Shown: piece by piece, positions 16,248 through 35,534 of the stretch
How positions within the stretch are numbered: position 1 is the first letter of the stretch
How the letters are laid out: every line of letters begins with the position of its first letter
Assembly (NCBI GenBank): GCA_020631155.1
Contig: JAHDHV010000012.1
Span: 1-38,490 of the forward strand
Direction: 5' to 3'
DNA length: 38,490 nt
DNA from: Bacteroidota bacterium
Lineage (GTDB): Bacteria; Bacteroidota; Bacteroidia; Chitinophagales; UBA2359
Notes under the pieces: generated by a model
The model's input: only the letters and a program-made list of their open reading frames with translations
What the model was told of the DNA's origin: nothing
Database searches by the model: none
Position numbers and translations under genes: made by a program

Positions 16248-17180
16248 ATGAGTCATCAGGTTTCAATTGTTATACCTGTTTATAATGAGGAAGGAAATGT
16301 GGCAGAGCTGCATGAGGAAGTCAAGCAAGTTTGTGAGCAAAACAACTATACCTATGAGGTTATTTTTATAGATGATGGTTCTTCTGATAATACAGTGGCC
16401 ATTGCTCGACAATTATCTCCTGTTAAAGTAATTCAATTTAGGAAAAATTTTGGACAAACGGCCGCAATGGATGCGGGCATCAAGGCGGCGCAATATCCTT
16501 ATATTATTACAATGGATGGCGACCGACAAAACGATCCTACGGATATTCCCAAATTAATTGCTCATTTAGAAAAACACGACTACGATATTGTGTCGGGTTG
16601 GCGCAAGGATAGAAAGGATAATTTTTCTAAGCATTTTGTGTCTAGGGGGGCAAATTTTTTGAGAAAGATTTTGATTAATGATGGGATTCAGGATAGCGGT
16701 TGCTCGCTTAAAATTTACAAAAAAGAGTGTTTTGATACCTTGAATTTGTATGGCGAAATGCACCGTTTTATCCCTGCCTTATTGCGAATCAAAGGATTTA
16801 CCATTGGCGAAGTAGAGGTTAATCATAGGGCGCGAACCGCAGGCGTTACTAAATACAATTGGCAGCGCACCATCAAAGGCTTAATTGACATGGTATCGGT
16901 TTGGTTTTGGAACAAATTTGCTACTCGTCCTTTACATTTACTAGGCGGCGCAGGTTTTTTTCTCATCATATTAGGTGTGTTATCTGGCATAGCTACCCTT
17001 ATCAGTTTTTTTAGTGGTCAAGGCATGTCGGAGTCCGCTTGGCCAATGTTGACCATGTTTTTAACCCTTACAGGTATTCAGCTATTTGTGTCTGGATTAA
17101 TTGCGGACATTATGGTAAAAAGCTATTTTGAAAATACCGAAGACCGTCCCTATAGCATTAAAGAAATCATTGAAAATTAG
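16248..17180 (+). CDS. GT2 polyprenyl-phosphate glycosyltransferase, membrane-anchored
   Basis: Family 2 glycosyltransferase of the GtrB/ArnC/DPM1 type, 310 residues. The N-terminal GT-A domain (about 4-225) shows SIVIPVYNEEGNV, FIDDGSSDNT, the signature VIQFRKNFGQTAAMDAGI and the metal-binding MDGDRQNDP. Further on it has DSGCSLKIYKK and FIPALLRIKG. Two hydrophobic segments follow (about 228-255 and 263-290, HLLGGAGFFLIILGVLSG and LTMFLTLTGIQLFVSGLIADI), the usual membrane anchor of enzymes that load a sugar onto undecaprenyl phosphate. Its neighbour 70 bp downstream is a GT39-like membrane protein, the class that commonly uses such lipid-linked sugars as donors, so the two may act in sequence. 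Confidence 0.92.
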   Translation: MSHQVSIVIPVYNEEGNVAELHEEVKQVCEQNNYTYEVIFIDDGSSDNTVAIARQLSPVKVIQFRKNFGQTAAMDAGIKAAQYPYIITMDGDRQNDPTDIPKLIAHLEKHDYDIVSGWRKDRKDNFSKHFVSRGANFLRKILINDGIQDSGCSLKIYKKECFDTLNLYGEMHRFIPALLRIKGFTIGEVEVNHRARTAGVTKYNWQRTIKGLIDMVSVWFWNKFATRPLHLLGGAGFFLIILGVLSGIATLISFFSGQGMSESAWPMLTMFLTLTGIQLFVSGLIADIMVKSYFENTEDRPYSIKEIIEN

Positions 17181-17250: not shown

Positions 17251-20200
17251 GTGAAATCATTATTATCAAAATTTTCTTTTTGGTTAAAAGGCTTATTACC
17301 CTTTTTAGCCATTTTTATAATAATGTTGATATTGGGAAATCGAGCTATTCAAATTAATCGCTTTCTCATTATTCCATTTTTTATAGGTGGAACAGCACTA
17401 TACAGTTTATTATTTGTGTTAATAGAGCGATTTCGCAACTCCCCCAAGTTGATACATTTTCAAAAAGGTAGTTACTATCTTTTTTTATTGGTACTACTGC
17501 TCAATTTATTGCTAAACATTGACTTCAACCTTTTTATAGATAATACAGACAGTCCATTCTATCTTTTAGTAGAAGCATCAGAAAGGCTAAAAGTAGTTAA
17601 TTTGCAATTGATTCTCTTGTTGGGCTTTTTGACTAGTGTCAACATTGCTACTAATTACTTACCTGCTCAACTGCAAAATGTCCCTTCTCTTTCTTCTGAT
17701 ACTAACACCTCTAAATATTCTACCTACAAAAAATATTTTGCTTTCCTTTCCCTTATTTTACTAACAGCCATCGGTTTAGTCTTGCGCCTCTGGAATCTGG
17801 ACCTGCTCGACTCCTATCGAGATGAGGATCACCATTTATCTAGTGTGCGTTTACTGTTTGATACAGGGGCTTTTGAATATACGCGCGCCCAATTGGTGAC
17901 CTATACATCTGCCTTTTTCATTTGGTTAGGCGGTGGCGTTTCCTATTACGATTTTTTGTATTGGGGGCGTGTGCCAAGTGCCATTATGGGAGCTTTAACC
18001 ACCATTCCTATTTATTTATTGGGGCGAAAAATTTCTAAACCTGTGGCAATGGTGTCTGTTTTGCTGTGGGTAATTTCGCCTTGGGCTATTGGTATTGCGC
18101 GCAATATACGAGAACATAGTTACTATATTTTTATCATTTTGATATTGGTATTGTTGGCTTTGGCAATTATTGAAATGGTGCTTAATTTTGATAAAAAACA
18201 GTTGCCTAAGTTCATCGCTTACAACTTGATTATGGGTGGTGTATTGAGTTATGCCTTTTTTATTGATTGGCTCTCTACCCTCAAAGTAAGTGGTGTTATT
18301 TTAGCGGCGGTTGTTGGTGCTTATACTGTTAGTAATATTGATAAAGTAGGGAGACTGTTGTGGAAGCGGAAAATACTATTGGTTTTGGCGATTTTAGCAT
18401 TAATTGGTTTGTTATTACCCATTAGTGGAAGTAAATTTTTAAGTGCCGATAAAGTGATTAACTATAAGTGGGCAGATACTTTTTTTAATCCAAACACCAA
18501 TACCCCTATTCAGTGGTGGAAATCTATTACTCGCAACTCCTATTTAGTTTACTTCATAGTTTTAATTGGTTTATTTGTTTCCATTATCAAAAAACACCGA
18601 CATTATTCTATTTATTTACTCACTTTTTTATTTATTGTTTTAGGGTATCACTTCTTTTTTGATCGTTACTACTCCCCTCGATACATTTCTTTTGCTTTGC
18701 CTTTTTTCACTATTTGCACAGCAGCCACAGTCGTTTATTTATTTAATATAATAGGAACCATTGGGCGAAAATGGCTGCGTTATCCCTTGCAAATTGCTTT
18801 AGTGGCCATTTTATTCAATATTTTTTATTTGCCCAATACAAGTAAAGCCATTACTAACCCAACTATTTTGGATAAAAGTTTCACCTTAGAAACAACAGGC
18901 GAGGTACATAATGATAAAAAAGAACTACTCCGTTTTTTAGAAAAATTACCTAAACAAGAGCTAGAAAAACAGCACATCATTACCTCTATTTACGAAAATG
19001 TGCTACAACATGAATTATGTGTAGACTCTACTAAATTACACAAATACAAATATAAAAAAACAGGACGTTTTTCTAGTGTAGATAGTATTATGAATAAATA
19101 CGAAAGTGGTTTTTTGATACTGGACAGCCATCGCAATGGTATTTGGCGAAATGGTTATGCTAAAGAAAGAAATGCCATTTTCAATGTGGGTAATGCTCAA
19201 GTACAGTTGATGCAAAACCGCAAATTGTGTCAAATCTACCAATGGAAAACCGACCTATTGACTAGCAAAAAATACGATATACCTGCTACCATGCGCCATT
19301 TTACTGATTTCAGTATTGACATTGGCAAGCCTTTTACGCTTTCTTTTTGGGTAAATATTCCTAAAATAGCAGATGCCCCTTTGATGTTTATTGGAAATAT
19401 AGAAGATAATGGAATTGTGGTAGATGCAGTTACAGATCAAGACAATAACAGCAAATTGCGTTTTAATTATGGCTCAACAATGGAGGGTTATTTCTCACAA
19501 ACCCCTCCTTTAAATGATCAGGAATGGCATCATGTGGTACTACATCATTATGGTGGTGCTAAAGGCTCTCCATTTTTTATTTATGTGGATGGTCAAAAGC
19601 AAGAGCCTTTTGCACGTGTACCTGTCCATAAATCCAAAATGCTAGAAGTCATTTTATCACAAGCTTTTCAAGGAGATGTACAAGATATTCGCATTTATAA
19701 TAAAGCCATCAAAGCACAGCAAATTGCAGATATTTATGAAAAAAATACCGCAGATACCCTAGCTTTTAACTCTCTCACGCCAGTAGGCACCAGTGAAGCC
19801 CAAGAAAAAGTTGAATTGGTAGAAAAAGAAGCTAAAACTAACTCAAATGATAGCTTAACAACAGCAAAGGATGCTGAAAAAACGGTAGTTGATGATACTA
19901 AGGAGGAATTAGTAGCAGAAAATATAGAGGATAACACAAATAATAAAGATGATATTGTTGTTGAAAAAGAGGTGAATAATACCGCTTCTAATGAAAAGAA
20001 AGTCCCGATTTCTGAAGAGAAAAAAGCGGAATTGCTAAAAGCGGCGACTGCTTTTCCAACATCTCCAACTACAGATTCCACAGAAGTTACTCCCTCACTT
20101 TCAAAGGCTGAAACAGCAACAACTATTAAGGAAGAAAAGCCTGAAACAGCACAGCCTATTGAGGAAAAAATGGCTGAACCATTACCCAAAAAAGTTGAGA

Positions 20201-20625
20201 ACAATAAAACAACTCCTGAACCTGTAGTTGCATCATCAAGCCCAAAAGAAACTATTAAGGAATCTAAACCAAAAGAAACGTCTAAAAAAGAAACACCTAA
20301 AGAAAAAACCAAACTACAGAGGCATAAACTGTATGTAGTTCAAATAGGAGCCTTTAAAAATGTAGATCACAAGAAGTTAAAATCATTGACTAGCGTAGGG
20401 CAATTATATAGTGAAAAATCAGGCAGTTTAACAAAAATATTGGTAGGACCTTACACCAATTCATCAGCAGCACAACAAGCAGCTAATAAAATCAAAGCCA
20501 AAGGATTTGCCGCTAAACAAAGAAGCATTACCATTAAATACCCAACCATTACGACAAACATCAATACCCAAGAACTGAAAAAAATAAAGCGCGAACCTAA
20601 ATTATCTACTCTAAGAAAATTGTAG
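17251..20625 (+). CDS. GT39-like membrane protein fused to LamG-like and SPOR domains
   Basis: A 1124-residue fusion starting at GTG 17251. Residues 1 to about 530 contain a dozen or more hydrophobic segments and resemble GT39/PMT-type lipid-sugar-dependent transferases. The first large loop after RLWNLDLLDSYRDEDHH has the acidic DE pair typical of the family. About 540-680 is a soluble extracytoplasmic stretch. About 684-832 resembles a LamG/concanavalin domain (FTLSFWVNIP, LNDQEWHHVVLHHYGG, FFIYVDGQ, FQGDVQDIRIYNKAI). About 833-1020 is a disordered Lys/Glu/Pro/Thr-rich linker. About 1027-1092 is a SPOR domain (LYVVQIGAFKN, ILVGPYTNSSAAQQAANKIKAKG), known for binding peptidoglycan stripped of stem peptides. 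The architecture suggests a transferase tethered to the cell wall, perhaps at division sites. The frame is continuous, so it is not an assembly of adjacent genes. Confidence 0.88.
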   Translation: MKSLLSKFSFWLKGLLPFLAIFIIMLILGNRAIQINRFLIIPFFIGGTALYSLLFVLIERFRNSPKLIHFQKGSYYLFLLVLLLNLLLNIDFNLFIDNTDSPFYLLVEASERLKVVNLQLILLLGFLTSVNIATNYLPAQLQNVPSLSSDTNTSKYSTYKKYFAFLSLILLTAIGLVLRLWNLDLLDSYRDEDHHLSSVRLLFDTGAFEYTRAQLVTYTSAFFIWLGGGVSYYDFLYWGRVPSAIMGALTTIPIYLLGRKISKPVAMVSVLLWVISPWAIGIARNIREHSYYIFIILILVLLALAIIEMVLNFDKKQLPKFIAYNLIMGGVLSYAFFIDWLSTLKVSGVILAAVVGAYTVSNIDKVGRLLWKRKILLVLAILALIGLLLPISGSKFLSADKVINYKWADTFFNPNTNTPIQWWKSITRNSYLVYFIVLIGLFVSIIKKHRHYSIYLLTFLFIVLGYHFFFDRYYSPRYISFALPFFTICTAATVVYLFNIIGTIGRKWLRYPLQIALVAILFNIFYLPNTSKAITNPTILDKSFTLETTGEVHNDKKELLRFLEKLPKQELEKQHIITSIYENVLQHELCVDSTKLHKYKYKKTGRFSSVDSIMNKYESGFLILDSHRNGIWRNGYAKERNAIFNVGNAQVQLMQNRKLCQIYQWKTDLLTSKKYDIPATMRHFTDFSIDIGKPFTLSFWVNIPKIADAPLMFIGNIEDNGIVVDAVTDQDNNSKLRFNYGSTMEGYFSQTPPLNDQEWHHVVLHHYGGAKGSPFFIYVDGQKQEPFARVPVHKSKMLEVILSQAFQGDVQDIRIYNKAIKAQQIADIYEKNTADTLAFNSLTPVGTSEAQEKVELVEKEAKTNSNDSLTTAKDAEKTVVDDTKEELVAENIEDNTNNKDDIVVEKEVNNTASNEKKVPISEEKKAELLKAATAFPTSPTTDSTEVTPSLSKAETATTIKEEKPETAQPIEEKMAEPLPKKVENNKTTPEPVVASSSPKETIKESKPKETSKKETPKEKTKLQRHKLYVVQIGAFKNVDHKKLKSLTSVGQLYSEKSGSLTKILVGPYTNSSAAQQAANKIKAKGFAAKQRSITIKYPTITTNINTQELKKIKREPKLSTLRKL

Positions 20626-20633
20626 GTTAGAGG

Positions 20634-20734
20634 TAAGACACAAGATGTAAGATGTAAGACACAAGACACAAGATGTAAGATTTAAGACACAAGATGTAAG
20701 ATGCAAGTCTCATATCTCCCATCTCACATCTTAA
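20634..20734. repeat. Heptamer array with inverted tail
   Basis: Ten perfect-period 7-base units of the form YAAGAYN run from 20634 to 20703 (TAAGACA, CAAGATG, TAAGATG and so on). From 20707 the units turn into their complement (GTCTCAT, ATCTCCC, ATCTCAC, ATCTTAA). The last forward and the reverse units can pair as an imperfect hairpin. The array starts 9 bp after the GT39 stop and ends 12 bp before the GT4 start. Confidence 0.88.
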
Positions 20735-20745
20735 ATAAATCACCC

Positions 20746-21858
20746 ATGAACATACTTTTCCTAAATTACGAATTTCCACCACTAGGCGGCGGTGCCAGCC
20801 CAATTAGCTTTGAAATAGCCGAGCGATATGTACAGTTAGGCCATCAAGTGAGTGTGGTAACGATGGGCTTTAAAGACCTGCCTGATGTGGAAGTAGTGAG
20901 TGGAATTAAAGTATTTCGAGTGCCTTGTATTCGTGCAAAAAAAGAGATTTGTCATCCGCACGAAATGCTGACTTTTGTATTTAGTGCCATCCGATTTTTG
21001 CGCCGCCATTTGCAACAATACAACTACGATGTTTGTCATACACATTTTGCCATTCCTACAGGTTTAGTGGCTCAATGGGTCAAAAAACAGTACAGCATCA
21101 ACTACATCATCACCAGTCATGGCAGCGATATACCGGGCTACAACAACGACAGATTTCTATTTTTACACCATTTTACCAAGCCCATTTTAAATTATGTCCT
21201 CAAAAATTCCTCTGGCAATTTTTCAGGCTCACAATATCTAGCCAATTTGGCCAATACCAACGTTCAGCCCCCTATCCCCTATCAAGTAATTCGTGAAGGT
21301 TTTAAAAGTCATCTATTTGAACCTAGAGAAAAGCAAAAAATCATTCTATCCACAGGGCGGCTACTGCGGCGAAAGGGGTTTCAATATTTAATCAAAGCCG
21401 TTTCAGGGCAAGACATTGGTTATGAGGTGCATATTTGTGGAGATGGCCCAATGATGGAAGAATTAAAGGCTTTAGCACAAAACTCCAAAACCAAAATTGT
21501 TTTTCACGGATGGATTAGTAACAAAGGGGAAAAATACAAGGAATTGCTGGAGTCAGCAGCGATTTATTCGCTGGTTTCTGCTAAAGAAAACGCCAGTAAA
21601 TCCCTATTAGAAGCCATGAGTGCGGGCTGTGCAGTCATCACTTCCAATATAGCAGGCTGTCCCGAATCGGTCGGCGATGCTGGCATTACCCTTCCCCCAG
21701 AAGATGAAGATATTTTGCGAAAAACCTTGTATAATTTGGTGGTTAATGAGCATAAAATTGAGGAACTAGGACAAAAAGCACGACAACGAATTTTAGAGGT
21801 TTACAACTGGGATACCCTCATTAAACAATACGAAAAGGTGTTAATGGATATTCAATAA
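20746..21858 (+). CDS. GT4 family glycosyltransferase
   Basis: GT-B fold retaining glycosyltransferase of 370 residues. The N-terminal domain starts MNILFLNYEFPPLGGGASP with the glycine-rich acceptor loop. The C-terminal donor-binding domain has STGRLLRRKGFQYLIKAV, HICGDGPMMEELKAL and the family's acidic helix region ENASKSLLEAMSAGCAVI, where the E-x7-E pattern contacts the nucleotide sugar. The frame extends upstream to 20701, but those 15 codons are heptamer repeat sequence, so the ATG at 20746 is chosen. It transfers an unknown sugar in the cytosol, probably onto a lipid-linked glycan intermediate. Confidence 0.92.
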   Translation: MNILFLNYEFPPLGGGASPISFEIAERYVQLGHQVSVVTMGFKDLPDVEVVSGIKVFRVPCIRAKKEICHPHEMLTFVFSAIRFLRRHLQQYNYDVCHTHFAIPTGLVAQWVKKQYSINYIITSHGSDIPGYNNDRFLFLHHFTKPILNYVLKNSSGNFSGSQYLANLANTNVQPPIPYQVIREGFKSHLFEPREKQKIILSTGRLLRRKGFQYLIKAVSGQDIGYEVHICGDGPMMEELKALAQNSKTKIVFHGWISNKGEKYKELLESAAIYSLVSAKENASKSLLEAMSAGCAVITSNIAGCPESVGDAGITLPPEDEDILRKTLYNLVVNEHKIEELGQKARQRILEVYNWDTLIKQYEKVLMDIQ

Positions 21859-22094: not shown

Positions 22095-23051
22095 ATGCAA
22101 AAACGAATACTTATCACAGGTGCAGCAGGCTTTTTAGGCTCTCATTTATCCGATAGATTTATTGCAGAAGGCTATCATGTCATCGGTATGGATAATCTAT
22201 TAACAGGCAATTTGGCCAATATAGAACATCTATTTCCGCTTGAAAATTTTGAATTTTACCATCATGATGTGTCGAAATTTGTGCATGTTCCGGGGAAATT
22301 GGACTATATTCTACACTTTGCCTCTCCTGCCAGTCCCATTGATTACCTAAAAATGCCCATCCAAACCATGAAAGTTGGTTCATTGGGTACACATAATTTG
22401 TTAGGTTTGGCAAAGGCTAAAAAAGCCCGAATTTTGGTGGCATCTACCTCTGAGGTTTACGGCGATCCACAGGTGCACCCACAAAAAGAAGAATATTGGG
22501 GCAATGTAAATCCTATCGGGCCGCGTGGCGTGTATGATGAAGCCAAGCGTTTTCAAGAAGCCATCACAATGGCCTATCACACTTTTCACGGTTTAGAGAC
22601 GCGAATTGTGCGAATTTTTAACACCTACGGACCTAGAATGAGGCTCAATGATGGTCGTGCTTTGCCTACTTTCTTTCGACAAGCCATTGAAGGTGAGGAC
22701 ATTACCGTTTTTGGCGATGGCTCACAAACGCGCTCATTTTGTTATGTCAGTGATTTGGTAGAAGGCATTTATCGTTTGTTGTTGAGTGATTATGCACTGC
22801 CTGTTAATATTGGAAATCCGCAAGAAATCAGCATCAAAGAGTTTGCCGAAGAAATCATCGAATTTACAGGCACCAGTTCCAAAATTGTCTACAAACCCCT
22901 ACCCAAAGACGACCCTCAACAACGACAGCCAGACATTACCAAAGCTCAAAATATTTTAGGTTGGCAACCAAGGGTTTCCCGTAAAGAGGGCTTTATCAAA
23001 ACCTACGCTTACTTTAAAGAAATATTGGAGAAAAATAAAACATTGGTTTAG
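22095..23051 (+). CDS. uxs: UDP-glucuronate decarboxylase (UDP-xylose synthase)
   Basis: Extended short-chain dehydrogenase of 318 residues, predicted to oxidise and decarboxylate UDP-glucuronate to UDP-xylose with recycled NAD. Diagnostic signs are [10 protein letters not shown] (nucleotide binding, about 9-18), [51 protein letters not shown] with the catalytic Y-D-E-A-K, and [11 protein letters not shown]. The [14 protein letters not shown] segment separates this family from UDP-glucose epimerases and RmlB. Its substrate can come from the UDP-glucose dehydrogenase encoded at 30879-32237 on the other side of the replication origin. It is flanked by repeat-rich spacers and probably has its own promoter, which I could not identify. 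Confidence 0.93.
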
Positions 23052-23547: not shown

Positions 23548-24666
23548 ATGCGAATTTTGCATGTCATAGATACCCTAGGTTTAGGCGGTGCACAGACGAT
23601 CCTAAAAGCTGTTTTTGATCAACAATCGGAACAGGACAATATTTTCATTTTTGCACTTCGACAAAGGGATATTACCATTGAAATCAATCACCCCAATATT
23701 ACCATCTATGAGTCTACTGCAAAATGGTCTTTAGCTCCCATTATTGCCTTAAAAAACTTTGTTAAAGAACACAATATAGATATTTTACATTGTCATTTAT
23801 TTAAATCTTCTGTAATTGGCTACCTCACAAAAAAGCTATTTTGTCCACAAGTAAAATTGATTTTTCACGAGCACGGCCAAATTGTAGGGAGTGACACCAA
23901 TAGTAAAACCCTTGACTTTGTTTATGATAATTTCAACCGTTTCGCTAGTTCCAGTGTAGACCTTTTTATTGCGGTATCCAATGCGATGAAAAATCTTTTG
24001 GTGGAAAAAGGCAAAGTTCGAGAAAGCAAAATACTGACCTTGTATAATTTTGTGGATTTAGATAAATTTAAAAACACTTTTACACAGAAAGAAATAGACG
24101 AATATAAAAAAGAACTCAATCTTAATAATAATGATTTTATTGTTGGATTTGCAGGTCGTATCATTCCCAGAAAGGGCTGGCGAACCTATATTGAAACTGC
24201 TAAAATATTGTGTTCTCAGTATGATGATATTCGCTTTTTAATTGCTGGCGATGGTGCCGATCGGGAGGAAATGTTGGCTTTAATTAAACAGTATAATTTA
24301 TCTGAAAAGGTACATTATTTGGGCTATGTTAAACAAATGCCTAAATACTATTTGTCCCTAAATTGCTTTGTGATGCCTTCCCATTTTGAGGGTCTGCCCA
24401 TGTCTCAATTAGAAGTCATGGCTTTGGGTGTTCCCTTAATTACAACAACAGGACCGGGTATGGATGAAATTCCACAGGACAATATAGATGCATTATTTGT
24501 TAAAATGAAAAATCCAACAGATGTAGCAGCTAAAATTATTATGTTGAAAGAACAAACCTCACTAGCCCAACAATTGGGGCAAAATGCACAAAGCAAGGTA
24601 CAAAAACACAGTGTTAAAAATTACATAGAAAAGTTAAATAAAACTTATCAAGTGTTTAGGGTGTGA
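23548..24666 (+). CDS. GT4 family glycosyltransferase
   Basis: GT-B retaining glycosyltransferase of 372 residues. The N-terminus MRILHVIDTLGLGGAQTILKAVF is the typical glycine-rich loop of this family. The C-terminal domain has GFAGRIIPRKGWRTYIETAK, LIAGDGADREEMLAL, and the sugar-nucleotide-binding MPSHFEGLPMSQLEVMALGVPLI with the E-x7-E pattern. It begins a probable five-gene operon: three sulfotransferases and a flippase follow with gaps of 27 bp or less. It is more distant from the GT4 at 20.7 kb than a recent duplicate would be. Donor and acceptor are unknown. Confidence 0.92.
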   Translation: MRILHVIDTLGLGGAQTILKAVFDQQSEQDNIFIFALRQRDITIEINHPNITIYESTAKWSLAPIIALKNFVKEHNIDILHCHLFKSSVIGYLTKKLFCPQVKLIFHEHGQIVGSDTNSKTLDFVYDNFNRFASSSVDLFIAVSNAMKNLLVEKGKVRESKILTLYNFVDLDKFKNTFTQKEIDEYKKELNLNNNDFIVGFAGRIIPRKGWRTYIETAKILCSQYDDIRFLIAGDGADREEMLALIKQYNLSEKVHYLGYVKQMPKYYLSLNCFVMPSHFEGLPMSQLEVMALGVPLITTTGPGMDEIPQDNIDALFVKMKNPTDVAAKIIMLKEQTSLAQQLGQNAQSKVQKHSVKNYIEKLNKTYQVFRV

Positions 24667-24693: not shown

Positions 24694-25596
24694 TTGAATC
24701 CATCTGCCATCTCCGACTTATCCAACACTTCTTTTCAATTACATTTTACAGGTATTGGTGCCGAAAAAGCAGGTACAACCAAAATAGCCGATTTGCTTGC
24801 TGCTCATCCTGATATTTGTTTATCAGAACCCAAAGAGGTACATTTTTTTAATGAAAAATTGGGCTATAATCACCAATTTGTAAACAAAAATTATGGTCAA
24901 TCTTTGATGTGGTATGAAAAACATTTTGCCCATGCAAAAAAAGGCCAATTAGTTGGAGAATTTTCAACGGGCTATTTGCCTGATCTTGCAGCTCCTAAAA
25001 ATATTCATGCACTTTTCCCCAATATCAAATTGATTGTATGCCTGAGAAACCCTATTAAGCGCGCCTACTCGCAGTACATTATGTATCGTTTTTATTTTAA
25101 AGCAGAAAATCGAAGTTTTAGCGAAACCATACGGCAAGAGCCTGAATACATCGAAAAAGGGCTATATGCAAAGCAAGTAAAACGATATTTGCAATATTTC
25201 AAACAAGAACAACTACACATTATTGTATTAGACGATTTTAAAAAAAATCCAACTACAACAATTCAACGACTCTATCACTTTTTAGGTGTAAATGATGCCT
25301 TTATTCCGCCCAATTTAACTGAAAAATCTAATGCTGCAAAAGCCATTAAATCGCCTTTTATCTCCAAATTAATGGGCTGGTTTTCTGCGGTAATGGTTGC
25401 TTTAAAATTGTCTGCCGTTTTGGGTTATTTAAAAGACTTAGGGCTTAAAAAATGGGTCATGAAACTAAATACTTCTAAAGTAGAACACCCTCCTATGACA
25501 GCAGAAGATAAAGCCTTTTTGCAACTTCAATTTTTAGATGATATACAAGAATTGGAACAACTGATTAACAAAGACTTATCAGCTTGGAAAAAATGA
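24694..25596 (+). CDS. Sulfotransferase, tandem copy 1
   Basis: PAPS-dependent sulfotransferase of 300 residues in the carbohydrate sulfotransferase group. The 5'-phosphosulfate-binding motif is GIGAEKAGTTKIADLL (20-35). The 3'-phosphate-binding segment is KLIVCLRNPIKRAYSQYIMYRF with the usual Arg and Ser. The only start giving the full domain is TTG at 24694; no ATG lies before the PAPS motif. It follows the GT4 gene by 27 bp and overlaps the next gene by four bases (ATGA). Long runs such as SEPKEVH and KLMGWFSAVMVAL are shared with the next gene, indicating tandem duplication. It probably sulfates a sugar of the locus product in the cytosol. Confidence 0.9.
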   Translation: MNPSAISDLSNTSFQLHFTGIGAEKAGTTKIADLLAAHPDICLSEPKEVHFFNEKLGYNHQFVNKNYGQSLMWYEKHFAHAKKGQLVGEFSTGYLPDLAAPKNIHALFPNIKLIVCLRNPIKRAYSQYIMYRFYFKAENRSFSETIRQEPEYIEKGLYAKQVKRYLQYFKQEQLHIIVLDDFKKNPTTTIQRLYHFLGVNDAFIPPNLTEKSNAAKAIKSPFISKLMGWFSAVMVALKLSAVLGYLKDLGLKKWVMKLNTSKVEHPPMTAEDKAFLQLQFLDDIQELEQLINKDLSAWKK

Positions 25597-26474
25597 GTAA
25601 AAATCCCTCTTTACATATTGATTTTCTAGGTATTGGCGCACCAAAAGCTGGTACGACAAAAATAGCGGATTTTCTAGCAGCACATCCACAGATTTGTTTA
25701 TCAGAACCTAAGGAAGTACACTATTTTAACGAATTTGTTTCCTACATTCATCAAGAAAAAAATCCAAATTATGGGAAGCCTTTAAATTGGTATGCCAAGC
25801 ATTTTGCCCATGCAAAAAAAGGGCAAAAAGTAGGGGAGTTTTGTACAGGTTATTTATACGATAAAAAAGCTCTTTATCAAATAAAAAATACATTTCCTGC
25901 TGTAAAACTAATTGCTTGTATTCGTCAACCTGTGGATCGTGCCTATTCTCAATATATTATGCACAGCTTTTACTTTAAAAAGGAAGTACGTACTTTTGAG
26001 GAAGTTATTCAAGCTGAAAAAGAATACATTGGTAAAAGTTTATTTTATAAGCAGCTAAAGCCTTACTTTGAGCATTTTGATAAAAAGCAAATTTTGGTGA
26101 TCCAATTAAAGGATATTCAGAAGAATCCAAAGGCAGTTGTAAAATGCTTGTATCAATTTTTAGAAGTAGACACTTCTTTTGTGCCTCCTGATTTAATGGA
26201 AAAATCCAATGCTGCAAAAGCGATAAAATTTCCCTTTGTTTCTAAGTTGATGGGTTGGTTTTCTGCGGTGATGGTTGCCTTACGACTGTCATTTGTACTT
26301 CAATGGTTAAAAGAAAAAGGCTTGCGAAAGTGGGTACTAAAATGGAATAGTCAACCGATGGATTACCCAGCAATGAAAACGGAAACAAGGGCTTATTTGA
26401 ATGAAGTGTTTAAGGAAGACATTGAACAATTGGAAGATTTACTAAATATTGATTTATCACATTGGAAATCTTAA
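25593..26474 (+). CDS. Sulfotransferase, tandem copy 2
   Basis: PAPS-dependent sulfotransferase of 293 residues and close paralogue of the preceding gene. PAPS-binding motif GIGAPKAGTTKIADFL (13-28) and 3'-phosphate segment KLIACIRQPVDRAYSQYIMHSF are present. Shared stretches with copy 1 include SEPKEVH-FNE and the C-terminal KSNAAKAIK region followed by SKLMGWFSAVMVAL. The frame continues upstream to TTG 25584, but the ATG at 25593, overlapping the previous stop as ATGA, is the natural coupled start. The two copies differ enough between those runs to suggest they now act on different positions or acceptors, which is inference. Confidence 0.9.
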   Translation: MSKNPSLHIDFLGIGAPKAGTTKIADFLAAHPQICLSEPKEVHYFNEFVSYIHQEKNPNYGKPLNWYAKHFAHAKKGQKVGEFCTGYLYDKKALYQIKNTFPAVKLIACIRQPVDRAYSQYIMHSFYFKKEVRTFEEVIQAEKEYIGKSLFYKQLKPYFEHFDKKQILVIQLKDIQKNPKAVVKCLYQFLEVDTSFVPPDLMEKSNAAKAIKFPFVSKLMGWFSAVMVALRLSFVLQWLKEKGLRKWVLKWNSQPMDYPAMKTETRAYLNEVFKEDIEQLEDLLNIDLSHWKS

Positions 26475-26476
26475 AT

Positions 26477-27379
26477 ATGGATGTTAAAAACCCCAATTTT
26501 CGGGTAGATTTTATAGGTATTGGCGCAGCAAAGTCAGGGACTACATGGCTCGCGAATAACTTAAAACAACACCCTCAAATTTGTTTTTCTCCTACCAAAG
26601 AAATCACCTATTTTAATGAATATCTGGTGCGAATGCCTGATGTTAAAAATCCACATCATAGCAAACCATTAAGCTGGTATCATCATTTTTTTGAGGCTAA
26701 AAAAGCAGGGCAAATCACTGGAGAAATTTCTGTTCAATATTTAATGATGCCGGGTACTGCTCAAAAAATTTACAATTACAATCCAAATGTGAAAATATTA
26801 GTCATTTTGCGCGACCCACCACAACAGGTTTTTTCTTGGTATTTGTACAGTATTCAAAGAGGAGTTGTTAATTATGCCACCTTAGAAGAAGCAATTAAAG
26901 AACGTCCAGACCTATTTGCTAATACCTTTTACTATCAGCAGTTAAAAATTTATTTTGACTTATTTCCAAAAGAAAACATTAAAGTTTTATTTTTTAAATC
27001 TATAAAAGAAAATAATAAAGCTTTTTTTAAAGAAGTATTAGATTTTTTAGGAGTAGATGAATTTTACCCTGAAAGCCTCACAAAAAAATCAAACGAAACA
27101 AAAACACTCAGATTTAAATCACTAACAAGGCTCATTCAAGGAACTCGTCATTTTATCACAAAACACAATTTGGAATTTATCATTCCTCTCCTTCGTTCAA
27201 TAGGAATTGTACAACTAGGTACCTTTATTCGAGATAAGATGAATGTGAAAAAAATGAAGGAAAAACCAAAACTGTCTTCAGAGTTAGAAGCAAAATTAAG
27301 GGCTTTTTATCAGGAGGATATTGAACAATTAGAAAGCTTATTAAATATTGATTTAAATCACTGGAAATCAAAAAAATAA
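26477..27379 (+). CDS. Sulfotransferase, tandem copy 3
   Basis: PAPS-dependent sulfotransferase of 300 residues, more divergent than the first two. The PAPS motif is GIGAAKSGTTWLANNL (13-28), the classic K-x-G-T-T-W form, and the 3'-phosphate segment is KILVILRDPPQQVFSWYLYSIQRG. The C-terminal DIEQLESLLNIDLNHWKS matches the ending of copy 2 (DIEQLEDLLNIDLSHWKS) almost residue for residue, so all three share ancestry. The upstream in-frame TTG at 26462 overlaps the previous gene. The ATG at 26477, two bases after its stop, is chosen. The flippase gene follows after 6 bp. Confidence 0.9.
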   Translation: MDVKNPNFRVDFIGIGAAKSGTTWLANNLKQHPQICFSPTKEITYFNEYLVRMPDVKNPHHSKPLSWYHHFFEAKKAGQITGEISVQYLMMPGTAQKIYNYNPNVKILVILRDPPQQVFSWYLYSIQRGVVNYATLEEAIKERPDLFANTFYYQQLKIYFDLFPKENIKVLFFKSIKENNKAFFKEVLDFLGVDEFYPESLTKKSNETKTLRFKSLTRLIQGTRHFITKHNLEFIIPLLRSIGIVQLGTFIRDKMNVKKMKEKPKLSSELEAKLRAFYQEDIEQLESLLNIDLNHWKSKK

Positions 27380-27385
27380 TACACT

Positions 27386-28633
27386 TTGTCTAAACTAAAA
27401 GATAAACTAATAAAAGAAACTTCTTGGAGCTTTGCATTAAAGGCTTGTACCTTTCCATTATTTTTTATTCTAAACATATTCTTGGCAAGAACATTAGGGG
27501 TTGATAAAATGGGGGAATGGTCTTTTTTCTTTTCCATTTTTACTACCCTTTTGCTGTTGTCCAATTTTGGAATCAAGGCTTCCATGAAATTTATTGCTCA
27601 ACACAATCATACAGATAATTTGATACAAGTCCTAAACGATGCAACAAAATTAAGGGTTATTTGTATCAGTATATTTTCTGCTATCTTGTTGATTTTCAGT
27701 GATCAATTGGCAATTTTAATTAATCGAGTAGAATTTACAAATTTATTTCGCTGGGCAGCTTTGTTATTACTTGTAACTGGTTTTGTAGAGTATTTAAAGC
27801 ATGTTTTTACTGGTTTACACCGAATTAAATACACTTTTATTGTTAACGTATCTGAATTAACTCTTAAAGTAGTATTTGTTATATTATTATTAACATGGAG
27901 TTTAGATTTGAAAAACATCATTTGGGCCTTTACCTTAGCAGTGACAATTAGCGTTTTGGCTGGTTTTTATTTATTATACAAAAATTTTTATACTAAAGAA
28001 AATACATCTACACAAAAATATTTTAAAGAAATTTTTGATTATAGTATTCCGTTATTTTTGGTAAGCATTGGTTTTTCTATTGCGACAGAAGTGGATACTA
28101 TCATGTTAGGTTTATTGTCAACAGATGCTGAAGTTGGCGTTTATGCCATTGCCAAACAGATAGTAGTGAAGTTACCTCATTTTAGTTACGCAGTTGCAAT
28201 GGGTACAATGCCTGTATTTGCAAAAATAACAATGGATAATCAATTGAAATTAAAGCGATTATTTTTTAGATTACTAGGCGTTAATGCATTGGTTTTTATT
28301 CCTGTTGTATTGGGAATTTTGTTTTTAGGACCTTATTTAATTCCTCTGATTTATGGAGCCGAATATGCTGCTGCTGTACTTCCTTTACAAATTTTGACTG
28401 TTTATTTGTTGGTTTTTACATTTACTGTTTTCTTTAATCAACTCTTAGATTATCAAGGACTTGCAAAGATAAGAGCCATTAATATTTTTATTTCTACGAC
28501 ATTAAATATTGTGTTAAATTATTACTTGATTCCTAAATATGGGGCAGTTGGGGCTGCTATTTCTACGTCAATTTCTTATTTTCCATATTTGATTTTAAAT
28601 GCTTGGGAAGCTCGAAAACTCTTTCCATATTAA
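27386..28633 (+). CDS. wzx: Wzx-type polysaccharide flippase
   Basis: Integral membrane protein of 415 residues with about twelve hydrophobic segments, of the polysaccharide transporter (RfbX/Wzx, MOP superfamily) group that flips undecaprenyl-linked repeat units across the inner membrane. Family-like features are the N-terminal NIFLARTLGVDKMGEWSFFFSIF (about 31-53), EVDTIMLGLLSTDAEVGVYAIA in the middle, and the C-terminal LNYYLIPKYGAVGAAISTSISYF. The start is TTG at 27386, 6 bp after the last sulfotransferase; the first residues SKLKDKLIKETSW are typical of flippase N-termini. It is the last gene of the GT4-sulfotransferase operon and lies immediately left of the replication origin. No Wzy polymerase was recognised nearby. 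Confidence 0.9.
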   Translation: MSKLKDKLIKETSWSFALKACTFPLFFILNIFLARTLGVDKMGEWSFFFSIFTTLLLLSNFGIKASMKFIAQHNHTDNLIQVLNDATKLRVICISIFSAILLIFSDQLAILINRVEFTNLFRWAALLLLVTGFVEYLKHVFTGLHRIKYTFIVNVSELTLKVVFVILLLTWSLDLKNIIWAFTLAVTISVLAGFYLLYKNFYTKENTSTQKYFKEIFDYSIPLFLVSIGFSIATEVDTIMLGLLSTDAEVGVYAIAKQIVVKLPHFSYAVAMGTMPVFAKITMDNQLKLKRLFFRLLGVNALVFIPVVLGILFLGPYLIPLIYGAEYAAAVLPLQILTVYLLVFTFTVFFNQLLDYQGLAKIRAINIFISTTLNIVLNYYLIPKYGAVGAAISTSISYFPYLILNAWEARKLFPY

Positions 28634-29096
28634 AGCGATTTTAAGGAGCTCTAAGCGTCTTTTTTTATTTTACACAAAAGGAATTGTCTTTTTTAAAAAA
28701 AGTTGTCTTAGAGTGTTTTAAATGGGTCTGATGATGAAATTGTAAGTTATGCTTTATTAGCTTTTATACCGAGTTCTGTTTTTGTGAACTATTAAAGGTA
28801 AGCATTTGATAGTGAATAGATGTATTTGAAGTATCAAAAATTTGTGCTTTTAATTGTATTAAAGAATTGACTATCAGATATTTAATTGCTAAAAGGTAAG
28901 TATTTGATAGTTGATGAATAATGGTGATTAGTGGTGTTTGTTTTCAGACTTAGAGTGACGAAATACAAAAACACATACATTGAGCAATGATTATCAATTT
29001 AAAATACAGATAAATAAAAATAATTGGAAATAAAAAAATATATCTTGGTTTGTAAACACCTAACTTTCGTTTTTCGTTTTCATGTTTGGTTTTGGC

Positions 29097-29166
29097 TTAT
29101 CCACAGGCCAAACAAATTTTAAATATTTTTCCATCAAAAACGACATTCATTTCAAAGTTATCCACA
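29097..29166 (+). promoter_or_regulatory. Pair of perfect DnaA boxes
   Basis: TTATCCACA occurs at 29097-29105 and again at 29158-29166, both matching the consensus DnaA box. An inverted perfect copy (TGTGGATAA) lies at 29433-29441 and a one-mismatch copy (AGTGGATAA) at 29406-29414, both inside the iteron block. They flank AT-rich DNA suitable for strand opening. Confidence 0.85.
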
Positions 29167-29289
29167 TATTTTTTCTAATTTTTTTCCCTAAAAACTCAAC
29201 ATTAAAAGATCGAGTAGTTTTAATAACTCTTTTAATTCGAGTATTTTAGAGGCTTGTAAAGCCTATGATTATCATTGTGTTACAACGGT

Positions 29290-29699
29290 TTTGGTAAGAG
29301 CTTGATAGTCAGAAAGGTAAGTAACTGATACTGAAAGGTAAGTAATGGGGAGTTATTTTCTTTCGAAAAACGCATTAAAAGGTAAGTATTTGATAGTCAT
29401 TGGTAAGTGGATAAAAACATACTTACCTTCAATGTGGATAAGTTGCTAAAGGTAAGTGTTTGATAGTCAAAAGATAAGTATTTGATAGTAAGAGAACAAA
29501 CTTTAAATTTCGCTTTTATACCCAATAATTTATAGTAAAGGTAAGTATTTGATAGTGGGAATGTAATATCTTCTGTTTGTACAGAAAGGTAAGTATTTGA
29601 TAGTAGAGGAATAATATTTTGTTGTTGTGTAAAAGGTAAGTATTTGATAGTGGGAATGTAAAATTTTCTGTTTGTACAGAAAGGTAAGTAATTGATAGT
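29290..29699 (+). repeat. Main iteron block
   Basis: Direct repeats of the 20-mer AAAGGTAAGTATTTGATAGT. Exact copies start at 29378, 29537, 29585 and 29632 (also at 28892 outside the block). Copies with one change start at 29448, 29470 and 29680 (also 28794). More divergent copies start at 29290 and 29313, and a truncated one at 29334. All point towards rep. Spacing varies from about 21 to 70 bp. A longer unit of roughly 48 bp (iteron plus GGGAATGTAA spacer plus TTTGTACAG) recurs in the right half. Confidence 0.93.
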
Positions 29700-29832: not shown

Positions 29833-30729
29833 ATGGAAAAAAATGATCATCAAATAGCTCAAGTTAGCAATGCATTAATTGAATCTCGACATGAACTAAC
29901 AACACTACAAAAAAAGATCATGTTATTTTTGATTTCGAGGGTCTCTAAAAGTGATAAACCCTTTCAACAATATAGTCTGAAGATTTCGGAGTTTGCAGAT
30001 ACCTCAAATGTTGTAAGTCCTCAGTTGTACAGCCGAATTAAACAGTCTACTGCGGAATTGCTGATGAAAGTATATGAAATACAGGAAACAGACGGTATTT
30101 TGCAGGTTGGTATGTTATCAAGTGCAAAGTATTTAGATGGTAAGGGGACAGTTCAAATTCGCTTTGATCCTGCTTTGATGCCTTATATTTTGGCTTTGAA
30201 GGAGCGTTTTACTTTTGTTCCGCTTCGGCATGTTTTGGGTTTTCGCTCTATACATTCTATCCGAGTATATGAAATGTTGCGTCAATTTAGAGGACCTGGG
30301 TATTTTGTCATTAGTATTTATGATTTAAAATATCGCTTATGCGTTGAAAATAAATATGTAAAATACGCTGCCTTTAAAAAATATGTGCTTTTACAAGCGC
30401 AAAAAGAATTAAAAGGTACAGATTGTGAGTTTACATTCGAGGAATTTAAAAAAGGGAGGCGTGTAGATCGGATTAAATTTTCGATTGTATCTCCTAAAAA
30501 AATTGAGTTAAGTAAAAAGGAAACAAAACTGTTGAATAAATTGGTGAAAGAATATCAATTAACATTGCCACAAGCGCGAAAAATCATTTTACACCTCTCT
30601 CCTACCATCATTCAACAAACTTTATATGAAATTCAAACGGCGAAAGTAAACAATGTCATCAAAACAAATTTGGGGGCTTTTACAGTAGGTGTTTTTAAGA
30701 AAAAATTTGAATGGTTGTATGAAAATTGA
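29833..30729 (+). CDS. Rep_3 family replication initiator
   Basis: Plasmid-type replication initiation protein of 298 residues (Rep_3/RepB superfamily), with two winged-helix domains that bind iterons as a monomer and the operator as a dimer. The N-terminal signature VSNALIESRHELTTLQKKIMLFLISRV (12-38) is the usual opening of the family. Later parts include VQIRFDPALMPYILALKERFTFVPLRHVLGFRSIHSIRVYEMLRQF (about 112-157), the core of the first winged helix and its junction. The second domain follows to about 230, and a basic C-terminal extension runs to 298. The upstream iterons, DnaA boxes and operator support the call strongly. The gene is intact. It lies between a flippase and ugd, so it separates two parts of the glycan gene set. 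No ParA/ParB partition genes are visible here. Confidence 0.93.
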   Translation: MEKNDHQIAQVSNALIESRHELTTLQKKIMLFLISRVSKSDKPFQQYSLKISEFADTSNVVSPQLYSRIKQSTAELLMKVYEIQETDGILQVGMLSSAKYLDGKGTVQIRFDPALMPYILALKERFTFVPLRHVLGFRSIHSIRVYEMLRQFRGPGYFVISIYDLKYRLCVENKYVKYAAFKKYVLLQAQKELKGTDCEFTFEEFKKGRRVDRIKFSIVSPKKIELSKKETKLLNKLVKEYQLTLPQARKIILHLSPTIIQQTLYEIQTAKVNNVIKTNLGAFTVGVFKKKFEWLYEN

Positions 30730-32459: not shown

Positions 32460-32714
32460 ATGTATACTATGACAGTAACTGTAAATAAATGGGGTAATAA
32501 TTTAGGTATTCAATTTCCTAAAGTAATTGCTGAAGCTGCCGATTTGTCCGCAGGTAAAAAGTTATTAATTACTATAGATGGAACAGGGAAACTTATTTTA
32601 CAAGTAGAAGAAGACAATATAACCCTTGATGATTTGATTAAAGGAGTGACACCAGAAAATAGACATGATGTTTTTATTAATAAAACAGTAGGTAAAGAAG
32701 GATGGAACTATTGA
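32460..32714 (+). CDS. mazE: MazE-like (AbrB-fold) antitoxin
   Basis: Small protein of 84 residues. The first half, VTVNKWGNNLGIQFPKVIAEAADLSAGKKLLITI (about 6-39), is a swapped-hairpin AbrB/MazE DNA-binding domain; the W-G-N-x-L-x-x-x-x-P pattern is diagnostic. The second half (about 45-84), with DNITLDDLIKGVTPENRHDVF, is the flexible tail that wraps and neutralises the MazF toxin. The ATG at 32460 is used; a second ATG at 32469 is also possible. The reading frame overlaps the toxin start by 13 bases, a coupling that keeps antitoxin ahead of toxin. A perfect palindrome upstream is the probable binding site for autorepression. Confidence 0.9.
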   Translation: MYTMTVTVNKWGNNLGIQFPKVIAEAADLSAGKKLLITIDGTGKLILQVEEDNITLDDLIKGVTPENRHDVFINKTVGKEGWNY

Positions 32715-33056: not shown

Positions 33057-35426
33057 TCATTCTTTTTGTCTTTGATGATAGACTGAAAAAGCTATCACCC
33101 CCAAATAAACCAACAAAGCCACTAAAGAAATGATCATACCCACCTTAAAAAATGGCGGTTCAAACTTCAAAATAACTTCACTTCTGCCCTGTTCAAGCAT
33201 CAATCCCATAAAGCCAAAATTCACCAATTCTAAAGGTCGCTTTTCTCCATTTACATACGCCTTCCAACCTCTATCATAGGGGATACTAAAAAACAACAGC
33301 TGCGGTTTAGGTACTTCAATACTGCCCACAATTCGATTTTGTGTGTGAGACTGTAATTGTAAATAATGTTTGGGCTGATAGTAATTGTCCCAACTGTTTT
33401 GATGTAGGGTATCTTGTAGTGTTGTTAGGTCAAAATTGGTGAGTTCTTGGTATTGTTGTACATTTTCTTTTTTTGGAATAAATGCCTTTAAAAGTGTTTT
33501 GTCTTTTTGTGCTTGTGAAAATTGATTAAACTCACTTTCTAAAACATATGTATCATAACAAAATCCAAAAGGCAGATGAAATTTATTTTCATAAACCATC
33601 ACATCCCCCATTTGTTTGAGGACTGTTTTATTGGTATCTGCTAAATCTACCAAAGTAACCGATTTATCCAAATGGTATTTAACACTAGCTAAACGCTGCA
33701 AAATGGGTCGCTTTTTTAGCCCTCTTACCCATCGGGTTGCTTCTTCTTTGCTAGAGTCAATCACCCCCATTTTTTGTAGAAAATGAACATAGTATTTTTG
33801 GTTAAAAGAGGCATAAGTTGTGGTACTATAATAGCCTTGAATTTTGCCATCGTTCAAACTTTTGTGCTCTGCATAACCCGAAGTATAACCTTTGCTTAAT
33901 CGGTAAAAACCTGTATCTTTTTCCTTTAAAAATTTTACAGCATCCACTGTATAATCTTTATACCCTAAACTCTGTTCAAACCGTTTGGCATTAACGGATT
34001 TTCTTTTGTGAATACTTTGATAATTAAATAACAATAATTCACCAATAATACAGAACAATAAAGCTATTTTAACAAAGTACCGTATTTTTTCTACTCGCCA
34101 TAGAAAAATTAAACAAGTGTAAATCATTAGAAAAATGACAATATAAATTCTAAGACTGGGATTTATTTTTTGAGTGGCTTTTGCCCCAAAGTGAGGAAAA
34201 AATAAGAATACAATAAACAATATAATTGTGCTTAATAAAGTAATGTAATTCAGTAGTTTAAAAGATTTTATTTCAGGTATTACTTTTACTAGGCAAAATA
34301 ACAAACTGATGGGAATAAAAACAGATAAAGCGGTTTTATAATAATCTCCAGTGAATAAATAAAAGGCATATCGAAAGTAGGGAAAAATCAATAATAAGGT
34401 CCAAAAACCTAAAAATGCGGTATATATCCAGCGTTTTTTACCCTTGATCACCAAAAAAATTTGAGGCAATAGCAACAAAGGCAATAAGCCACAATAAAAA
34501 AGAGGAGCTTCTAAATAATTGCTCCAGCCTGTAAAATCACTGCCATTTCCCAATAAATCACTCGCAAAAAAGCGCGAAAATACAGTGATATAATGAAGTG
34601 GTTCCTCTAGCCCAAAGATGGGTTTTGAAGCCAATTCACTAAAATAACTCACTGTTCCACTAACACGCGGACTGTCCCAAATTCGGTAAAAAACGGAAGG
34701 CAAAAAAGGAGCTTTAAACGCCAATCCTAAAACGGATAAACCCAATAATTTTAGCCCCAAATTATCTATCACCTCCCAATTAAACTGCTCATCCAAACTC
34801 AACCTAAATAAGCCATATATCAGCAGAAAAACAGCCGAAAAATACAAGGAAGTAGTGGCCAATAAAAACACAGCTATCGGAAACAGCCAATAGGAATTAT
34901 CTTGATACAGTTTTTCAAAAGCCAATAACAACAACAAAGTAGACAGCACAATCATAGAATGACCATACCAACTCCCCCCCACTATTACATAAGCCGAAAA
35001 AGTAATTAAAAGTGCAGTAATAAATGAATATTCAGTAGAATTTGATATTTTTTTAAAGTATAAAAAAGCAATTAAGCCAATAAAAAACAGCTTCAAAACT
35101 TCTACATAGATGAACCCATACGGTAGCTTTTCAACACCTAAAGTAAACAACAACCAATTAAAAGGATTTTCAATACCAGAGGGCACCAAATTCTGCCCCA
35201 TGCCCTGATTAAAAGACCATTTGGGTAAACCTTCTGTCCGCAAATATTCGGAAATATGAGCTAAATGTGGGTAAAAAATATTGATGGTATCACTCCCAAC
35301 ATCAGTAAATAAATACAGTTGCTGCCCTAATAAAAAATCCCAAAACAAGGCCGCCGACATGCCCAAAATCAGCGCACCCAAAGACAACAGCCACCATTTT
35401 TTTGTTCTATTTTTTTTAGGATTCAC
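33057..35426 (-). CDS. YfhO-family membrane protein
   Basis: Large membrane protein of 789 residues in the YfhO family (GT-C-like fold). About 12-13 hydrophobic segments occupy residues 10 to about 460. The first loop contains the acidic FTDVGSDTINIFYPHLAHI (about 38-56), a typical YfhO feature. It is followed by LPKWSFNQGMGQNLVPSGIENPFNWLLF. A soluble extracytoplasmic domain follows (about 470-750), ending with the signature FSIPYDRGWKAYVNGEKRPLELVNFGFMGLML and a last membrane helix (about 765-783). In Gram-positive relatives YfhO glycosylates lipoteichoic acid; in Bacteroidota the role is usually unknown, but a sugar transferase is likely. It is read leftward, with the TMTC-like gene 104 bp upstream in the same direction. 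Confidence 0.9.
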   Translation of the reverse strand: MNPKKNRTKKWWLLSLGALILGMSAALFWDFLLGQQLYLFTDVGSDTINIFYPHLAHISEYLRTEGLPKWSFNQGMGQNLVPSGIENPFNWLLFTLGVEKLPYGFIYVEVLKLFFIGLIAFLYFKKISNSTEYSFITALLITFSAYVIVGGSWYGHSMIVLSTLLLLLAFEKLYQDNSYWLFPIAVFLLATTSLYFSAVFLLIYGLFRLSLDEQFNWEVIDNLGLKLLGLSVLGLAFKAPFLPSVFYRIWDSPRVSGTVSYFSELASKPIFGLEEPLHYITVFSRFFASDLLGNGSDFTGWSNYLEAPLFYCGLLPLLLLPQIFLVIKGKKRWIYTAFLGFWTLLLIFPYFRYAFYLFTGDYYKTALSVFIPISLLFCLVKVIPEIKSFKLLNYITLLSTIILFIVFLFFPHFGAKATQKINPSLRIYIVIFLMIYTCLIFLWRVEKIRYFVKIALLFCIIGELLLFNYQSIHKRKSVNAKRFEQSLGYKDYTVDAVKFLKEKDTGFYRLSKGYTSGYAEHKSLNDGKIQGYYSTTTYASFNQKYYVHFLQKMGVIDSSKEEATRWVRGLKKRPILQRLASVKYHLDKSVTLVDLADTNKTVLKQMGDVMVYENKFHLPFGFCYDTYVLESEFNQFSQAQKDKTLLKAFIPKKENVQQYQELTNFDLTTLQDTLHQNSWDNYYQPKHYLQLQSHTQNRIVGSIEVPKPQLLFFSIPYDRGWKAYVNGEKRPLELVNFGFMGLMLEQGRSEVILKFEPPFFKVGMIISLVALLVYLGVIAFSVYHQRQKE

Positions 35427-35499: not shown

Positions 35500-35534
35500 G
35501 TCTTATATCTTATGTCTTAAATCTTGCATCTCAT
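35500..35534. repeat. Heptamer array at the end of the TMTC-like gene
   Basis: Five units in the complement orientation: GTCTTAT, ATCTTAT, GTCTTAA, ATCTTGC, ATCTCAT, running into the stop codon of the minus-strand gene (35531-35533). On the minus strand it reads as AGAYNNN like the arrays at 20634 and 32203. Confidence 0.8.

Follow-up and report, generated by a model that had tools for sequence, protein, structure and literature searches.

Three tandem genes for putative glycan sulfotransferases of two subfamilies in an operon of a Chitinophagales bacterium

Close precedents for paired sulfotransferases exist. The xss cluster of Synechocystis sp. PCC 6803, which lies on a megaplasmid, encodes a Wzx-type flippase, glycosyltransferases and two sulfotransferases of distinct subfamilies; its product, synechan, is described as carrying about two sulfates per repeat, and modification enzymes in general as acting before Wzx flipping (PMC8205485). 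In the capsule and O-antigen clusters of Vibrio sp. KMM 8419, cysNDC genes and sulfotransferases serve surface glycans, and the putative O-antigen cluster has a sulfotransferase beside Wzx (PMC11641403). In the archaeon Halobacterium salinarum, two different sulfotransferases, Agl30 and Agl31, sulfate two sugars of one short glycan (PMC11980604), and a 2024 review reports six bacterial genera that make sulfated polysaccharides (PMC11625862). Here we analysed a stretch of 38,490 nucleotides (hereafter the window) from a Bacteroidota bacterium of the order Chitinophagales, in which three adjacent sulfotransferase-like open reading frames (ORFs) on the plus strand, at 24694-27379, are followed by a flippase gene. 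The window is the whole of contig JAHDHV010000012.1 (C293), one of the 666 contigs of a 6.48 Mb draft genome.

The array locus shares with xss the Wzx type, the glycosyltransferases and the sulfotransferases of distinct subfamilies, and the window likewise has a plasmid-type origin. Unlike this locus, xss has a Wzy polymerase, a co-polymerase and a priming transferase, none of which was identified in the window, whereas neither a LamG membrane protein nor YfhO, both present here, is named for xss in the parts of that paper used here (PMC8205485). As in the Vibrio strain, cysNDC genes and a sulfotransferase gene beside Wzx are found in our genome, but the published Vibrio clusters use an ABC transporter for the capsule, hold the cys genes inside the cluster and have their sulfotransferases in three regions, not in tandem (PMC11641403). 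Agl30 and Agl31 are comparable to the array in number and role; they differ in belonging to archaeal N-glycosylation, and one of them is membrane-associated (PMC11980604). We consider it reasonably probable that the array encodes cytoplasmic carbohydrate sulfotransferases dependent on 3'-phosphoadenosine 5'-phosphosulfate (PAPS) and belonging to two ancient subfamilies that act on one glycan, which we named ST-A (copies 1 and 2, ST1 and ST2) and ST-B (copy 3, ST3). It is well founded to regard the array as a further example of known glycan sulfation, with a distinctive second subfamily.

Each of the three ORFs matches the sulfotransferase family PF00685 well above the cut-off of 22 bits (Table 1). 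The earliest mechanical TTG starts give ORFs at 24694-25596, 25584-26474 and 26462-27379, but copies 2 and 3 probably begin at the in-frame ATGs of 25593 and 26477, respectively. The ATG of copy 2 overlaps the stop of copy 1 as ATGA (spacing -4 bases), that of copy 3 sits 2 bases past the stop of copy 2, and the flippase ORF starts 6 bases downstream of copy 3. An earlier note, made from the letters of the sequence, had described three tightly packed tandem sulfotransferases with overlapping or near-overlapping starts before a flippase, and this description was borne out. Its remark that copies 1 and 2 share long identical stretches also held (six runs of 8-14 identical residues, the longest being SKLMGWFSAVMVAL), as did the near identity that it had seen at the C-termini of copies 2 and 3 (17 of the final 19 residues). 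Global identity is 59.0% between copies 1 and 2, 39.8% between copies 2 and 3 and 32.5% between copies 1 and 3, with shuffle z-scores of 159, 90 and 51, respectively (100 shuffles each). The same tail can be made out in 3rnl, a distant relative of known structure, so the C-terminus that copies 2 and 3 share is weak evidence for recent duplication; it appears to be largely a conserved family tail.

Structure prediction covered ST3 alone among the three copies and gave an AlphaFold2 model with a mean confidence (pLDDT) of 90.8. In a Foldseek search the top match of this model was 3rnl from Alicyclobacillus (TMq 0.68, E 1.1e-15), followed by the human heparan sulfate 3-O-sulfotransferases (3-OSTs) and the heparan sulfate N-sulfotransferase NDST1 (0.54-0.64), while the remaining listed sulfotransferases, mostly cytosolic SULTs, scored 0.35-0.45. 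The sequence profile comparison agrees, its nearest entries being 3rnl and the heparan sulfate 3-O-/N-sulfotransferases, and 3rnl, NDST1 and the 3-OSTs are the best solved relatives of ST2 too. The array proteins share with these enzymes the fold (as predicted for ST3), the 5'-phosphosulfate-binding (PSB) and 3'-phosphate-binding (3'-PB) motifs and the Glu on an E-x-x-x-F loop, although the identity of ST3 to its solved fold matches is low (16-23%) and ST-B lacks a conserved His. The alignment made for the fold took in proteins from 15 of 20 named loci (all but L021, L023, L026, L028 and L029). In a separate set of 25 aligned sequences, ST1 to ST3 among them, the PSB Lys, a Lys-Glu pair, the 3'-PB Arg and a Ser are invariant throughout. 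When the array proteins are aligned with 3-OST-5, their Glu falls on that of its EIHFF loop, and we take it to be at the position of the catalytic Glu90/Glu184 of 3-OST-1/-3. This Glu serves as the catalytic base in 3-OSTs, where a His two positions further along also matters for activity (PMC8341778). The Glu is present in ST1, ST2 (E44) and ST3 (E47, both numbered from the TTG starts), the neighbouring His in ST1 and ST2 only. The comparison suggests that the three genes most likely encode PAPS-dependent sulfotransferases of the glycan (3-OST/NDST) type.

To place the copies, 20 genomes of the same family (its own included) were searched with the array profile, and 12 of them matched at E <= 1e-70. 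In a tree of 25 rows, comprising the family loci and L017 only, copy 3 fell in the ST-B clade (nine sequences from nine of the 20 genomes, support 100/100), and copies 1 and 2 fell in a different group, ST-A. A clade of ST2 and ST3 was rejected by the approximately unbiased test (p-AU 4.7e-42), and with it a recent triple duplication; a clade of ST1 and ST2 was not rejected (p-AU 0.276). The latter two are sisters at 83/58 in a tree of 58 rows, but not in the best 25-row tree. The 58-row tree was built without L016 (a copy of L067), L010-L015 (the same loci as others used) and L026-L029, and included the unrelated ORF 2579-3196 of L064, which had a very long branch and was left out of the 25-row tree. 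Genome counts are based on the genomes numbered G only, with some of which L010-L016 overlap; these relatives with the same kind of locus are metagenome-assembled and titled Bacteroidetes or Chitinophagales bacterium. ST-B is an older subfamily, separate from ST-A across genera. The earlier view of the array as products of duplication thus stands only in part: not one burst gave rise to it, but copies 1 and 2 may be lineage-specific duplicates.

This genome is the only one of the 20 with a second array-type ST-A; none was found beside an ST-A/ST-B pair in the other 19, several of which are incomplete (61-86%), so that copies may be missed. Most simply, the ancestral state of the locus would be an ST-A/ST-B pair, to which this genome has added an ST-A. 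The extra copy is not young, because dN (nonsynonymous divergence) between ST1 and ST2 is 0.35, about the same as that to the orthologue in G003, a genome of another genus (0.36-0.37). ST-A is under purifying selection: the ratio of dN to synonymous divergence (dS) was 0.07-0.15 in the four of eight pairs with finite dS, all of them ST-A; dS was saturated in the other four, which include all three ST-B pairs. ST-A directly adjoins ST-B in G004, G008, G010, G013 and G015, and other ORFs lie between the two in G003 and G009. The G007 contig carries ST-B but no ST-A, and the ST-A of G014, on a contig of 3.5 kb, is followed by an unrelated ORF. A gene on contig C533 elsewhere in this genome and genes in G012 and G007 form a subgroup of their own that is related to ST-A. 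We also considered whether gene conversion had made ST2 and ST3 alike at their 3' ends, but this was not firmly supported: several other pairs equal or exceed their third-position matches (13/20), and the tail belongs to the family as a whole. Over the last 22 columns ST2 and ST3 are 77% identical, whereas none of 81 ST-A/ST-B pairs from different genomes exceeds 68%; the within-genome pairs gave 73% in G013 and 36-59% in six others.

Beyond the family, 34 of the 60 genomes of a search among relatives (its own included) match the array profile at E <= 1e-20, which qualifies the earlier remark that bacterial cell-surface sulfation is not common. Among 395 genomes sampled from the class, this one included and with no more than five candidates scored per genome, eight reached E <= 1e-40 against the ST-B profile, and besides this genome only G415 did better than 1e-80. 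Arrays also occur in other families of the order, with five or six sulfotransferases inside roughly 10 kb in G021, G041 and G053 and four in G058, so a tandem arrangement is no rarity in this order. Loci L073, L074, L075 and L076, from other families of the order, each hold four to six PF00685-type genes within 10 kb, three of them with a flippase-like gene.

The earlier note had proposed a search of the genome for PAPS synthesis genes, and cysC, cysD and cysN were found adjacent to one another on contig C87; another gene with a PAPS-reductase domain lies on C364. The gene content indicates that this organism can make PAPS, although sulfate assimilation alone could explain these genes too. PAPS is cytosolic, and sulfation would therefore most likely take place on a lipid-linked glycan before Wzx flipping. 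The glycosyltransferases would first assemble a lipid-linked oligosaccharide; ST-A and ST-B would then sulfate it in two different places, or in three should ST1 and ST2 have diverged, and Wzx would flip the sulfated unit. An ArnC-like glycosyltransferase of family 2 (GT2), with the LamG and/or YfhO membrane proteins, suggests that a further sugar may be added on the periplasmic side, at the outer face of the inner membrane. By analogy with synechan, the ancestral ST-A/ST-B pair would account for two sulfates, with the additional gene of this genome perhaps contributing a third or altering the dosage. The result would probably be a surface sugar chain sulfated at more than one place.

The genes around the array are listed in Table 1. 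Their common order in related loci is the GT2, the LamG membrane protein, GT4a, a short-chain dehydrogenase/reductase (SDR), GT4b, ST-A, ST-B and Wzx; this operon is kept in related genera, although several loci are cut by contig ends and that of G009 is rearranged. A Wzx relative directly or closely follows ST-B in five of the nine ST-B genomes, and the SDR, which we take to be probably a UDP-glucuronate decarboxylase, was seen in five of the nine as well (its own included in both counts). The GT2 matches the NCBIfam models ArnC (151 bits) and PgfS (141 bits), both below the cut-off. The YfhO-family protein is a possible partner of the GT2; a YfhO relative lies near the flippase gene in G008 and G013 (L063 and L067), and in the more distant G415 (L113) one lies near ST-B-like and flippase-like genes. 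PF00884 sulfatase genes stand beside or near ST-B in G007, G013 and G015, and none was seen among the window ORFs scanned, which were 24 of the 28 ORFs of at least 100 amino acids, the other four overlapping larger ones.

Table 1. Features of the array locus and its surroundings in the window
Feature	Coordinates	Strand	Description
GT2, ArnC/PgfS-related	16248..17180	+	polyprenyl-phosphate sugar synthase type; PF00535, 127 bits; two C-terminal hydrophobic segments
LamG membrane protein	17251..20625	+	1124 aa; polytopic, 12 hydrophobic segments; C-terminal Laminin-G-like (Laminin_G_3) and SPOR domains
GT4a, GT4 glycosyltransferase	20701..21858	+	PF00534, 85 bits; orthologues 74-80% identical in 6 related loci
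Extended SDR	22095..23051	+	PF16363, PF01370; NCBIfam matches all below cut-offs; 84-85% identical in 4 related loci
GT4b, GT4 glycosyltransferase	23548..24666	+	directly upstream of array; PF00534, 131 bits; orthologue upstream of ST-A in related loci
ST1, first ST-A sulfotransferase	24694..25596	+	300 aa; start TTG; PF00685, 62.4 bits; ST-A group in tree; motifs GAEKAGTT, EPKEVHFFN, RNPIKRAYSQY
ST2, second ST-A sulfotransferase	25593..26474	+	PF00685, 57.5 bits; ST-A group; likely start ATG
ST3, ST-B sulfotransferase	26477..27379	+	PF00685, 46.8 bits; ST-B clade 100/100; likely start ATG
Wzx/MOP-type flippase	27386..28633	+	Polysacc_synt PF01943, 117 bits
Rep3 initiator gene	29833-30729	+	only PF01051 match in genome
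YfhO-family membrane protein	33057..35426	-	PF09586, 203 bits; PgfM2 far below cut-off

A search of 119 genomes found the LamG membrane protein in nine, and these are exactly the genomes that yielded ST-B; the search for ST-B covered the 20 family genomes plus 60 of the 119. The chance of a random nine-in-nine co-occurrence among the 20 family genomes is 6e-6, a figure that makes the link look stronger than it is, as the genomes are related. The protein of this genome has a C-terminal SPOR domain and a long linker; Laminin_G and no SPOR match was seen in the four relatives scanned, two of which come from loci truncated upstream. No convincing Pfam or PDB sequence match was obtained for its membrane part, and the model of the protein had a pLDDT of 47.8. 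To us its topology and an RDEDHH motif are reminiscent of GT-C glycosyltransferases, but this identity was unsupported by structure prediction, Pfam, PDB search or hhalign, the last of which, against four PMT_2 proteins, gave a best probability of 15% and at most 0.2% for the others (0.1% for the controls Wzx and ChrA).

Several observations weigh against the assignment of the three genes to glycan sulfation by two working subfamilies. ST-B lacks a His conserved in 3-OSTs, so that its activity could differ, and its pairs, saturated for dS, yield no dN/dS figure; the His is likewise missing from four sequences that group with ST-A (those of C533 in this genome, G012, G007 C366 and G006), two of which have Asp for Glu. 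Wzx follows ST-B in only the five genomes mentioned, a sulfatase gene being the neighbour instead in the G015 and G007 loci, and the co-occurrence of LamG and ST-B is partly explained by common descent. ST-B might be an accessory protein, no longer a sulfotransferase, with the ST-A copies alone sulfating the glycan. In ST3 the His of the catalytic loop is Thr and RxPxxR has become RxPPQQ, and in all nine ST-B sequences (ST3 and its eight orthologues) this His is replaced by Val or Thr and the second 3'-PB Arg by Gln. The same nine nevertheless keep the PSB Lys, the catalytic Glu, the 3'-PB Arg and the Ser, and the predicted fold of ST3 is intact. In the two genome pairs compared, ST-B is no less conserved than ST-A (85% versus 80%; 63% versus 60%); we therefore read the pattern as an altered acceptor site of an enzyme that still works rather than as decay, and consider an accessory role unlikely. 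Still less probable is that the proteins sulfate a lipid, a secondary metabolite or another non-glycan molecule: PF00685 is functionally broad and cytosolic SULTs are among the weaker fold matches, but among proteins of known function glycan sulfotransferases come closest in fold and in sequence, and the operon consists of glycosyltransferases and a flippase.

A more serious alternative concerns the product. The earlier note had expected a sulfated surface polysaccharide; the sulfation of a glycan agrees with 3-OST/NDST-type enzymes in an operon with glycosyltransferases and a Wzx-type flippase. As to a polymer, no Wzy polymerase, ligase, priming transferase, PCP/OPX (polysaccharide co-polymerase/outer-membrane export) protein or other outer-membrane export gene was identified by Pfam in the 24 window ORFs, a scan that could miss a divergent polymerase and did not extend to the rest of the genome; a polysaccharide would be one of several possible products. 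With the same enzymes, the operon might yield, instead of a polymeric capsule, a short sulfated oligosaccharide destined for protein O-glycosylation or for a glycolipid. In H. salinarum a short N-linked tetrasaccharide is modified by two different sulfotransferases (PMC11980604), so that two such enzymes do not imply a polymer. On the other hand, no oligosaccharyltransferase or ligase was identified nearby either, and the contigs are short, so that missing genes may lie elsewhere, as is described for the synechan export gene (PMC8205485). We regard a short product as quite possible, though not as the expected outcome.

No published description of this operon was found among the papers listed, for the most part those available without subscription, on Saprospiraceae sulfotransferases, Chitinophag- sulfated polysaccharides, Bacteroidetes exopolysaccharide clusters, or Bacteroidota sulfated glycans and flippases. 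A conserved operon with two recognisable sulfotransferase subfamilies offers concrete marker genes for producers of sulfated polysaccharides, and the pairing of ST-A with ST-B is a natural case in which to study the placing of two sulfates on a single glycan by bacteria.

A plasmid-type origin lies inside the contig, between the flippase gene and a gene of the UDP-glucose-dehydrogenase type. Eleven copies of an iteron (GGTAAGTATTTGATAGT, at most 3 mismatches) occur at 28797-29699 on the plus strand, and three of the window's five sites of the DnaA-box-like TTATCCACA are near them, at 29097, 29158 and 29433. Among plasmids the relatives of the Rep3 protein are all distant (4550 records, each below 60% identity; the 20 listed are 30.5-40.4% identical). 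The segment 23548-28633 had no match among the plasmids searched, and no overlap was seen between the contig ends. A broader picture, which we put forward tentatively and with some doubt, is that of a sulfated-glycan module almost confined to one Chitinophagales-type family, in which the His-less ST-B would sulfate a second position and an unclassified membrane-LamG transferase would always stand alongside, with a third sulfotransferase gained here on an iteron-type plasmid or an integrated plasmid.

Some further features were seen in the window. A distant sulfotransferase (PF13469, 8542-9627) stands beside an arylsulfate sulfotransferase (ASST, PF05935, 9671-11122), both on the plus strand and downstream of a gene of the chromate-transporter type. 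At 1529-3856 (plus strand), a GDP-mannose 4,6-dehydratase (TIGR01472, 586 bits) is split by an intein-like insert with a LAGLIDADG_3 match, which ends in VHN before a Ser of the host protein; among the 60 genomes searched the insert was found in this one only. The product of the ORF at 35531-37276 (minus strand), analysed by Pfam and hydropathy scans and a single hhalign comparison, is a polytopic membrane protein carrying TPR repeats in its C-terminal part and strikes us as reminiscent of TMTC-type O-mannosyltransferases. An ORF for a PemK/MazF-type toxin is located at 32702-33043 on the plus strand.

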